Shown here piece by piece: positions 1,255 through 21,155 of a DNA stretch of 64,000 nucleotides. This DNA is from Cupriavidus sp. EM10 (lineage in GTDB: Bacteria > Pseudomonadota > Gammaproteobacteria > Burkholderiales > Burkholderiaceae). The stretch covers positions 496,001-560,000 of the forward strand of contig NZ_CP076060.1 in the NCBI RefSeq assembly GCF_018729255.1, in the 5' to 3' direction. The notes beneath the pieces are model-generated. The model ran no database searches, was not told the origin of the DNA, and saw only the letters and a program-made list of their open reading frames with translations. How positions within the stretch are numbered: the stretch's first letter is position 1; each line of letters begins with the position of its first letter. The position numbers were made by a program, and so were the translations under genes.

Positions 1255-1470
1255 AGGGAGACGAAATGAAAAGCTGGCGGGCAAGTGCGCGAACCATCTC
1301 ACGCGAGGATTGCCAAACCTTGGATTCTATCGGGTTTTTGGCCTGCCTCAGCCGGGAACCGGCAGGAAACGGTGTCGCAGGGCACGAATCGTGCATGCCG
1401 CAGCTGTCGGGCCGGCGCAACGGGTCGGGTAAATCCTGACATGGGTTTCAGAAGTGTCCGATAGGTGCCG

Positions 1471-1492
1471 ATACTGTTTTTGTATACAGTTA
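1471..1492. promoter_or_regulatory. Candidate LexA (SOS) box
   Basis: The core CTGTTTTTGTATACAG at 1474-1489 has the CTG-N10-CAG form of gammaproteobacterial and betaproteobacterial LexA sites, with TA on the left and TT on the right. It strongly resembles the site before recA in this same window. The nearest plus-strand candidate target is the small ORF at 1631; glyQ starts 217 bases away on the other strand. Confidence 0.7.
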
Positions 1493-1553
1493 GAGCACGC
1501 GGTCACCGAATCACAAACCAGATGGCCGCCGGGCCGGATCGTCGGCCTGCCAC

Positions 1554-1577
1554 GGGCGAAGCGCCAGCTTCGAGCCC
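1554..1577 (+). other. Leader hairpin between LexA box and small ORF
   Basis: CGAAGC (1557-1562) and GCTTCG (1567-1572) form a perfect 6-bp stem with the tetraloop GCCA. GGG (1554-1556) and CCC (1575-1577) can extend it across a small bulge. Another GC-rich imperfect inverted repeat lies just upstream, around 1522-1547, so a transcript starting at the LexA box would carry a folded leader of roughly 130 bases. Confidence 0.45.
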
Positions 1578-1630
1578 GGGCAGCCGATCAAGCGATGCGG
1601 ACTCGAAACAACAACTTAAGGGGATTGGTC

Positions 1631-1723
1631 ATGTCGCTGCTGTCTCGCAAGCCTTATATCGTCGCCATCGCCGTGATGGTGGCCGCCGCCGCCGTCTCGA
1701 TGGCGTCGTCGCTGGTCGGTTAA
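1631..1723 (+). CDS. Small membrane peptide, putative SOS-regulated
   Basis: This is a 30-residue ORF starting MSLLSRKPY, followed by about 20 hydrophobic residues (Ile, Val, Ala, Met) and ending SSLVG, which fits one membrane span with a positive N-terminus. A good ribosome binding site, AAGGGGA at 1618-1624, lies 6 bases before the ATG. A LexA-type box lies about 140 bases upstream with a structured leader between. The stop overlaps the end of lnt on the other strand by 4 bases. The frame is open further upstream, but only this start has a ribosome binding site. I know no family for it; by size, topology and SOS box it resembles TisB-type peptides, but the sequence is not TisB. It could also be a chance ORF. 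Confidence 0.45.
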   Translation: MSLLSRKPYIVAIAVMVAAAAVSMASSLVG

Positions 1724-3366
1724 TCCAGCGCCCGGCGCCGCGCCCGCAGCGCCAGCAACAACACGAGCACACTGCCGGCCAGCGCCGGCACGTTGCCCCA
1801 GCGGATATACGGCGTCAGGCCCTGCATGCCCTGCACGTCGGCCGTCAGCGTACCCACTTCGAACGTCGGCAGCTTCGCCTGCACGGTGCCGTCCGGGCGG
1901 ACCACGGCCGTCATGCCGGTATTGGTCGCGCGCAGCATCGGCCGGCGCATTTCCAGCGCCCGCATGCGCGAAATCTGCAGATGCTGGTCCAGCGCGATGG
2001 TGTCGCCGAACCATGCCAGGTTGGTGACGTTGGCCAGCAGGTTGGCGGGCGTGGCCTGCTGACGCAGCGTGGCGGCGATTTCCTCGCCGAACAGATCCTC
2101 GTAACAGATATTGGGCGCCACATGGATGCCCCGCACCGGCACGGCCGGCTGGTCCAGCGTGCCGCGCCGGAAGTCGCCCAGCGGCATCTTCATCATGTTG
2201 ACGAACCAGTGGAAGCCGAACGGGATGAATTCGCCAAACGGCACCAGGTGGTGCTTGTTGTAGCGGTAGAGCGCTTCCAGCTCCGGCCCGATGGCAAACA
2301 CGCTGTTGGTGAAGTCCACCGGCGAATCGGCGCCCGCCGCACCAAAGACGACCGTCGTGCCGGTCTTCTCCATATAGGTGCGCACATCCTTGGCGATATC
2401 CAGCGGCAGGTCCTGCAGGATCACCGGGAACGCGGTTTCTGGCGTCACGACGAGGTCTGCCGGCGCCGCGGTAATCATGTCGCGGTATAGCTCCAGCGAA
2501 CGCTGGATGCCCACCGGCTCGAACTTGATGTCCTGCGCCACGTTGCCCTGCAGCAGCCGCACGCTGACCGGCTTGCCGATCGGGGCCGTGTACGCCACCG
2601 GCGCCAGCGCCAGGCCAACGCCCAGGGTCGCGGCCACCAGCCCAATCGACCCGGCCGCGATGCGCGTGGCGCCCGGCTCGGTGCGGCGCAGCGCGGCGCG
2701 CACGGCCACCACCAGCAAGGCCGCCGATGCTGCCGCCAGGAACGTGATGCCGTAGACGCCGAACAGCGGCGCGAAGCCCGACAGCGGGCCATCGGTATGC
2801 GGATAGCCGCTGCCCAGCCACGGAAAGCCCGTGAACACCACGCCGCGCAGCCATTCCGACAGCGCCCAGGCCGCGCCGAACGCCAGCGCGGCCAGGATGC
2901 CGCCTCGGCCGCGCGCGGTCAGCCAGTGCCATGCGCCGGCCGCAAGCGCGGGCCACAGCGACAGGTAGGCGCCAAACAGCACCACGGCCAGCGCCGCCAT
3001 CCACGCCGGCATCTCGCCGTAGACGTGCATGCTGATATAGAGCCACCAGATGCCCGACAGGAACCAGCCCATGCCGAATGCGTAGGCCGTGGCCGCCGCC
3101 GCACGCGGGCGGCCGGCATCGGCCACCAGCGCCACCAGCCCCGCCAGCGACAGGATCTGCAGCCACCACCAGTCATGCGGCGCAAACGCCTGCGTATGGG
3201 CCACGCCCAGCGCGGTGGCGATCAGCAGCCGGAACAGCACGGTCTGGCGCGATGCCATGCCTGCGGCGCCTGCCGGTGTGGAAGCGGGGGAGGAGGATGG
3301 TCCGGAGCCGATCGACGGATCGGCGCGGCGGGTACCCACGGCGTCGGGCGTGCCGGCGCGCTTCAT
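1720..3366 (-). CDS. lnt: Apolipoprotein N-acyltransferase
   Basis: Lnt transfers an acyl chain from phospholipid to the N-terminal cysteine of lipoproteins in the inner membrane, the last step of lipoprotein maturation. The 548 residues show several N-terminal membrane spans, then a nitrilase-type periplasmic domain from about residue 265. Its catalytic triad is visible: Glu310 (TPETAFP), Lys371 (NKHHLVPFGE) and Cys421 (NICYEDLFG). A last hydrophobic segment lies near the C-terminus. The ATG at 3366 overlaps the corC stop (ATGA), which supports this start; an internal Met at residue 37 is an alternative because the first 36 residues are not family-like. The corC-lnt pairing is usual in proteobacteria. 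Confidence 0.95.
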   Translation of the reverse strand: MKRAGTPDAVGTRRADPSIGSGPSSSPASTPAGAAGMASRQTVLFRLLIATALGVAHTQAFAPHDWWWLQILSLAGLVALVADAGRPRAAAATAYAFGMGWFLSGIWWLYISMHVYGEMPAWMAALAVVLFGAYLSLWPALAAGAWHWLTARGRGGILAALAFGAAWALSEWLRGVVFTGFPWLGSGYPHTDGPLSGFAPLFGVYGITFLAAASAALLVVAVRAALRRTEPGATRIAAGSIGLVAATLGVGLALAPVAYTAPIGKPVSVRLLQGNVAQDIKFEPVGIQRSLELYRDMITAAPADLVVTPETAFPVILQDLPLDIAKDVRTYMEKTGTTVVFGAAGADSPVDFTNSVFAIGPELEALYRYNKHHLVPFGEFIPFGFHWFVNMMKMPLGDFRRGTLDQPAVPVRGIHVAPNICYEDLFGEEIAATLRQQATPANLLANVTNLAWFGDTIALDQHLQISRMRALEMRRPMLRATNTGMTAVVRPDGTVQAKLPTFEVGTLTADVQGMQGLTPYIRWGNVPALAGSVLVLLLALRARRRALD

Positions 3367-21136: not shown

Positions 21137-21155
21137 TACTGTTTTTTATACAGTA
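21137..21155. promoter_or_regulatory. LexA (SOS) box of recA, one base short
   Basis: TACTGTTTTTTATACAGTA matches the LexA consensus at both ends, but the spacing between CTG and CAG is 9 instead of 10. A possible -35 (TTGCCA, 21127-21132) and -10 (TACAGT, 21149-21154) are 16 bases apart; one extra T in the T run would restore both the LexA spacing and the usual 17-base promoter spacing. The missing base fits the other homopolymer errors in the window. Confidence 0.8.

Follow-up and report, generated by a model that had tools for sequence, protein, structure and literature searches.

In a window of 64,000 nucleotides from Cupriavidus sp. EM10, by which we mean the whole stretch of DNA analysed, two leftward, minus-strand genes enclose a short plus-strand ORF. 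We take the divergent neighbour (301-1254) and the convergent neighbour (1720-3366) to be glyQ, encoding glycyl-tRNA synthetase alpha, and lnt, encoding apolipoprotein N-acyltransferase, respectively. The 30-codon ORF between them (MSLLSRKPYIVAIAVMVAAAAVSMASSLVG, 1631-1723) overlaps lnt by its last four bases and encodes a peptide with a single membrane span. It is preceded by the Shine-Dalgarno sequence AAGGGGA (1618-1624, plus strand), and an SD-like string occurs in 56 of 57 orthologous loci. An earlier sequence-only reading had pointed to a LexA-type box, a hairpin, a ribosome binding site and this ORF, and all four are present where it placed them.

Of 60 Cupriavidus genomes, 57 carry an intact ORF flanked by glyQ and lnt. 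In all 57, a leftward glyQ precedes the ORF by 280-435 bases and a leftward lnt follows it. With a profile of 15 orthologues, 57 of 59 Cupriavidus genomes were matched at E 1.2e-8 or better; the remainder of 398 family genomes gave nothing below E 0.001, the best family match outside Cupriavidus (E 0.0014) lying inside a long frame. Likewise, a 21-member profile run against 399 genomes of the order found matches solely in three Cupriavidus genomes, the source genome included. We also inspected 20 glyQ-upstream regions from 11 other genera, eight from the nearest large genus, presumably Ralstonia, and 12 from ten others; they contained neither the ORF nor the conserved element TTTTTGTATACAGT described below. 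The sequence-only reading had proposed comparing the region across Cupriavidus and Ralstonia. Within Cupriavidus, the peptide proved to be conserved under purifying selection, whereas the left half of the box and the hairpin did not; beyond it, the ORF was absent from all eight regions of the nearest large genus.

Peptides of 30 residues are encoded at 51 loci, of 29 residues at three and of 27 residues at three, and all three stop codons are used among the 57 ORFs. Over the 51 loci with 30 codons, pN/pS was 0.23 in codons 2-23 compared to 0.94 in codons 24-30; codons 2-23 are under purifying selection, and the tail is free. Ten residues (M1, L4, K7, P8, Y9, A12, V15, M16, A20 and S23) are invariant in the 51 peptides of full length. 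Neither ORF nor element was found in G415 (78% complete) and G012 (54% complete). In G396 (locus L188, G396:C313:2300-3300), the promoter, the stem described below and the start codon are kept, but a deletion removes the ORF body. Either the peptide is dispensable and this is a natural loss, or this assembly, which comprises 420 contigs with 6% contamination, is wrong. Judged by these sequence comparisons, the ORF at 1631-1723 is a real gene, clearly more than a chance frame, and the earlier proposal of a gene for a one-span membrane peptide, with a dedicated promoter region, holds up. It represents a micro-gene of Cupriavidus, so far unnamed, with a strongly conserved promoter region of its own. 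The window peptide had no match in Pfam or NCBIfam, and the best family matches among the 21 profile members were DUF2628 (E 0.035, three of 21) and TIGR02811 (E 0.018, eight of 21). A protein database contained seven entries for the peptide, all without a name, and no account of the gene was seen among the papers listed by the literature searches; glyQ goes unmentioned in the main text of two papers on transcription starts in C. metallidurans (PMC9045368, PMC7563307).

The start of the ORF has a peculiar codon usage. Codons 2-9 (1634-1657) are rare, AT-ending and kept across the genus, with a GC3 of 0.39 compared to 0.89 further on. Codons 5, 7, 8 and 9 are TCT, AAA, CCT and TAT in 43, 37, 40 and 37 of 51 loci, respectively, and the same codons are used in glyQ and lnt at 0 of 30 (TCT), 1 of 16 (AAA), 0 of 49 (CCT) and 4 of 31 (TAT) positions. 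This stretch is under constraint at the nucleotide level, which the micro-gene account leaves unexplained. It may be a translation ramp or an RNA pairing site; no complement of it was found elsewhere in the window.

Upstream of the gene, the most conserved feature is the element TTTTTGTATACAGT (1477-1490, plus strand), which is present ahead of the ORF in all 57 loci, exactly in 46 and with one base changed in 11. In G031:C3, for example, it occupies 475,664-475,677 and the ORF match 475,803-475,892. Its last six bases, TACAGT (1485-1490), form a putative -10 hexamer that varies only at the fifth base, where G is replaced by T in four of 57 loci; the fifth base is among the less constrained positions of a -10. 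Transcription from such a hexamer would begin at A1497 on the plus strand, a column that holds A in 44 of 57 loci and is followed by one with A in 43. No -35 was recognisable by eye at 16-18 bases from TACAGT, a sigma70 scan reported no promoter at the proposed site, and the conservation of the element exceeds what a -10 needs. Further upstream lies a second conserved block, CAACGGGTCGGGTAAATCCTGA (1418-1439, plus strand; consensus CAACGnnTSGGGWAAAYMCYGA), which contains an imperfect dyad and could be an activator site. It is centred about 65 bases before A1497, and this distance is the usual place for an activator. With up to three mismatches, the block had 11 matches in the genome, its own site included, compared to three for a reversed control. 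A shared regulon was considered and rejected, the ten further weak sites having mixed contexts and no common theme. TTTTTGTATACAGT was likewise dismissed as a regulon motif, having one occurrence in the genome at up to one mismatch, and its 11-base core stayed at control level (10 matches at up to one mismatch vs 7). On the other strand, a 16-locus alignment revealed a conserved TAGAAT (1329-1324), which is probably the -10 of glyQ.

Directly behind the predicted start, a small stem-loop (1499-1529, plus strand; arms 1499-1504 and 1524-1529) is conserved in position while its arm sequences change. Counted from the G of the element, a 5-bp stem begins 16-19 bases downstream in 51 of 57 loci; 100 shuffled sets gave 10.4 on average and never more than 18. 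This test was devised after folds had been inspected and related loci are not independent, so that its significance is overstated. We found 11 arm combinations, among them GCAAC/GTTGC, GCGGT/GCCGC, GCAGC/GCTGC, GCTGT/ACAGC, CCGGG/CCCGG and GCAGT/ACTGC, and arms taken from loci with different arms pair in only 6% of cases (147/2432). When arms were permuted among loci, a mean of 15.2 and a maximum of 22 of 57 paired, as compared to 39 observed; permuted arms still pair because many loci share an arm. A free-energy signal was seen neither in the first 45 nor in the first 60 bases (mean z -0.34 and -0.03, 57 loci), and the distance to the ORF is variable, between 62 and 151 bases over 56 loci. 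A 5' stem is a known protection for an mRNA 5' end. Taken together, we infer that the element is best read as a promoter with TACAGT as its -10, a reading based on sequence and favoured over a sigma28 promoter, which could be present as a second one.

The sigma28 alternative places the gene in the FliA regulon, with a T[CA]A[AG]-N15/16-GCCGATA promoter and a start near G1482, the peptide serving motility or chemoreceptor membranes. The window carries such elements as TCAG (1448-1451) and GCCGATA (1467-1473) on the plus strand, separated by a spacer of 15 bases. The strict form is found in 41 of 57 loci, and a relaxed form, T[ACT]A[AG]-N14/17-G[CTA]CG[AT][TC]A, in 54, with spacers of 15 (45 loci), 16 (eight loci) or 14 bases (one locus) that are poorly conserved in sequence. 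Promoters of the same genome ahead of fliC, flgK and a third flagellar gene, which we take for flgN, consist of TAAAG and G[CT]CGATAA with spacers of 15 or 16 bases, compared to which the TCAG found here is a weak -35. The consensus given for sigma28 in the literature, TAAAGTTT-N11-GCCGATAA (PMC2859248, PMC7286023), was counted in favour of the elements. FliA itself is encoded in 57 of 60 genus genomes; it was not found in G272 (100% complete) and G024 (97% complete). The -10 of G272 is GCCGACA, the sole such form among the 57 loci; however, GCCGACA is not a clear decay because the aer promoter of E. coli, as described in PMC2859248, uses GCCGACAT. G024 has a -10 of the same form as a FliA-bearing relative. 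Both genomes without FliA still keep the ORF, and conservation is lower in GCCGATA than in the TTTTTGTATACAGT that follows it, an element that sigma28 can do without. Membership of the FliA regulon is a possibility that we take seriously but do not favour.

The element also forms part of the LexA-type box. CTGTTTTTGTATACAG (1474-1489) is contained in the 18-base sequence ACTGTTTTTGTATACAGT (1473-1490), the left CTG of which occupies 1474-1476. The bare pattern CTG-N10-CAG is uninformative by itself, because the window holds 21 matches when 22.4 are expected. The AT-rich 18-base form, allowing up to three mismatches, matches this site alone in the window (once per strand), with 0.01 expected. 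The genome contains 17 perfect ACTGT-N8-ACAGT sites, ACTGTTTTTGTATACAGT among them, and others precede genes that, going by the adjoining ORFs, we take to be lexA, dinB and xth. On a LexA matrix built mostly from the source genome, the site scores 25.1 bits, level with the weakest of 16 training boxes (25.2-36.7 bits), which are themselves predicted. Orthologous sites score from -1.1 to 20.5 bits on the same matrix. Their left triplet takes 17 different forms over 57 loci, CTG occurring in one of them, namely here, and the three most similar relatives (88-89% DNA identity) have CCG in its place.

A box about 20 kb downstream, at the position of recA, served as control. The sequence CTGTTTTTTTATACAGT stands there in 55 of 60 genomes, and 56 retain both CTG and CAG, G014 being the extra one, as counted by hand. 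A RecA protein is encoded behind the site in six of seven fetched relatives, the seventh having been read in another frame, and at the remaining sites recA is presumed from position. Three genomes (G410, G415 and G024) yielded no such site, and G000 has a shortened one. In all seven fetched relatives, the recA-side site has the form TTGCCA-N17-TACAGT with the LexA box over it, the hexamer coming after a run of T. In the window itself, the recA box (21139-21154) reads CTG-N9-CAG with six T, one T short of CTG-N10-CAG, reflecting either a homopolymer assembly error or an altered recA control in this strain.

According to these data, the LexA box of the sequence-only reading stands for this species, where LexA probably binds it, but not as a part of the conserved system. 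LexA binding is not what keeps the element, and LexA as genus-wide regulator was rejected, given that the left half-site is free while the recA-position box is nearly invariant. Instead, one substitution, CCG to CTG, appears to have turned the sequence over the -10 into a complete LexA box in this species alone, so that SOS control and damage induction may be a lineage-specific gain. In its full form, this scenario holds that a -10 containing a LexA half-site was turned into a full operator by a single substitution and that a genus-wide membrane peptide unrelated to SOS is joining the SOS regulon, a proposal that we consider possible, though less likely than not. If true, it would offer a snapshot of regulon capture, with the 56 orthologous loci representing the state before and recA, 20 kb away, the finished one.

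Originally, the locus had been read as a possible SOS-induced membrane peptide in a TisB-like arrangement, which in full would be a toxin restrained by a structured leader and perhaps by an antisense RNA. The good LexA box of this species and a membrane peptide of TisB size are in line with this idea, whereas the rarity of the left CTG next to a conserved recA-position control argues against it. The leader does not support it either. The strong hairpin that was to provide the structure, GGGCGAAGC-GCCA-GCTTCGAGCCC (1554-1577, plus strand), has similar stems by eye only in close relatives, nine loci having been folded, and the window leader (1480-1660) is only moderately structured, with a z of -1.75 and 13 of 200 shuffles as good. 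Over 56 related leaders, the mean z was +0.24 and none fell below -2. The hairpin is not a feature of the genus, and structure in the leaders does not exceed chance. Searching positions 1200-1900 for an antisense RNA, we found no terminator-like site and no sigma70-type promoter, and the sole Rfam match in the same region, a snoRNA model at E 0.11, is not credible. Finally, TisB is described as needing charged or polar residues of the K12, Q19, D22 and K26 type, together with a C-terminal lysine (PMC11449926). In 49 of 57 peptides, that of the window included, D, E, K, R and H are absent after residue 9, leaving the peptide without a charged face. Neither the full box nor a structured leader is conserved in the genus, the peptide does not look like TisB, and we regard a toxin of this kind as highly improbable.

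Alternatively, the conserved entity might be an RNA, composed of the element, the 5' stem-loop and the AT-rich first codons, with the ORF as a leader or as by-product of a small RNA. Such a view would accommodate the position-conserved stem, the rare, AT-ending codons that persist at positions 2-9 throughout the genus and the survival of the upstream parts in G396, where they outlive the ORF. It is nevertheless hard to reconcile with purifying selection that acts on the residues as far as codon 23, with an ORF length that is unchanged in 51 of 57 loci, with the use of three different stop codons, and with a next gene, lnt, that is convergent in all 57, and we judge it very unlikely. Weak LexA control throughout the genus, by one strong and one degenerate half-site, is the least credible reading of all: many orthologous sites do score 14.8-20.5 bits, when one million random positions all stayed under 14, but the left half varies freely among its 17 triplets while the recA-position box hardly varies, and the right half is accounted for by a -10.

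We therefore come back to a stand-alone Cupriavidus micro-gene with its own TACAGT promoter and an inner-membrane modulator peptide as product, an account to which we give slightly better than even credence. The promoter module would have a nearly constant geometry, in which the block at 1418-1439, a probable activator site, is followed by TTTTTGTATACAGT with TACAGT (1485-1490) as -10. Transcription would proceed from A1497, yielding an mRNA that opens with the small stem-loop at 1499-1529. As suggested by the distribution of charges, the peptide would span the inner membrane once, its positive N-terminus (R6, K7) remaining in the cytoplasm and its nearly charge-free helix crossing the membrane. 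Its function, guessed from its class, would most likely be that of a small inner-membrane modulator that binds or tunes a larger membrane protein, not that of a pore toxin. The CTG of this species would complete a LexA box over the -10, in the layout seen at recA, and damage induction may follow.

With these results, a genus of biotechnology and metal-resistance interest gains a well-supported membrane micro-gene that is still unnamed, and the conservation of its promoter is so high that the regulator should be findable. They also illustrate that single-genome SOS predictions can mislead when a -10 resembles a LexA half-site, and that one substitution could put a gene under SOS control.

Compared to known systems, the locus shares individual parts with several. 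With the sigma28 flagellar promoters of fliC, flgK and flgN, it has the spacing and the GCCGATA element in common; it differs in the -35, which is TAAAG there and T[CA]A[AG] at the peptide gene, with TCAG in this species. SidA of Caulobacter is an SOS-induced single-span membrane peptide and, compared by description, resembles the present peptide in size, span and possible LexA control, the difference being that the SOS control of the latter is not conserved in the genus. The same likeness and the same difference apply to DinQ/AgrB of E. coli, as described in PMC3567139, with the SOS control possible in this species only and the comparison again made by description. TisB/IstR-1, a type I system of E. 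coli, has the same order of LexA box, leader and a one-span peptide of about 30 residues. Here, however, the LexA box was seen in this species only, the leader has no conserved structure, the peptide is without the K12, Q19, D22 and K26-type face, and no antisense RNA was found. A further likeness is with the Cupriavidus recA promoter. It has TTGCCA as its -35 and conserves the left CTG, both lacking at the peptide promoter; yet its TTTTTTTATACAGT is nearly the same as TTTTTGTATACAGT, and in both cases the LexA half-site overlaps the proposed -10.
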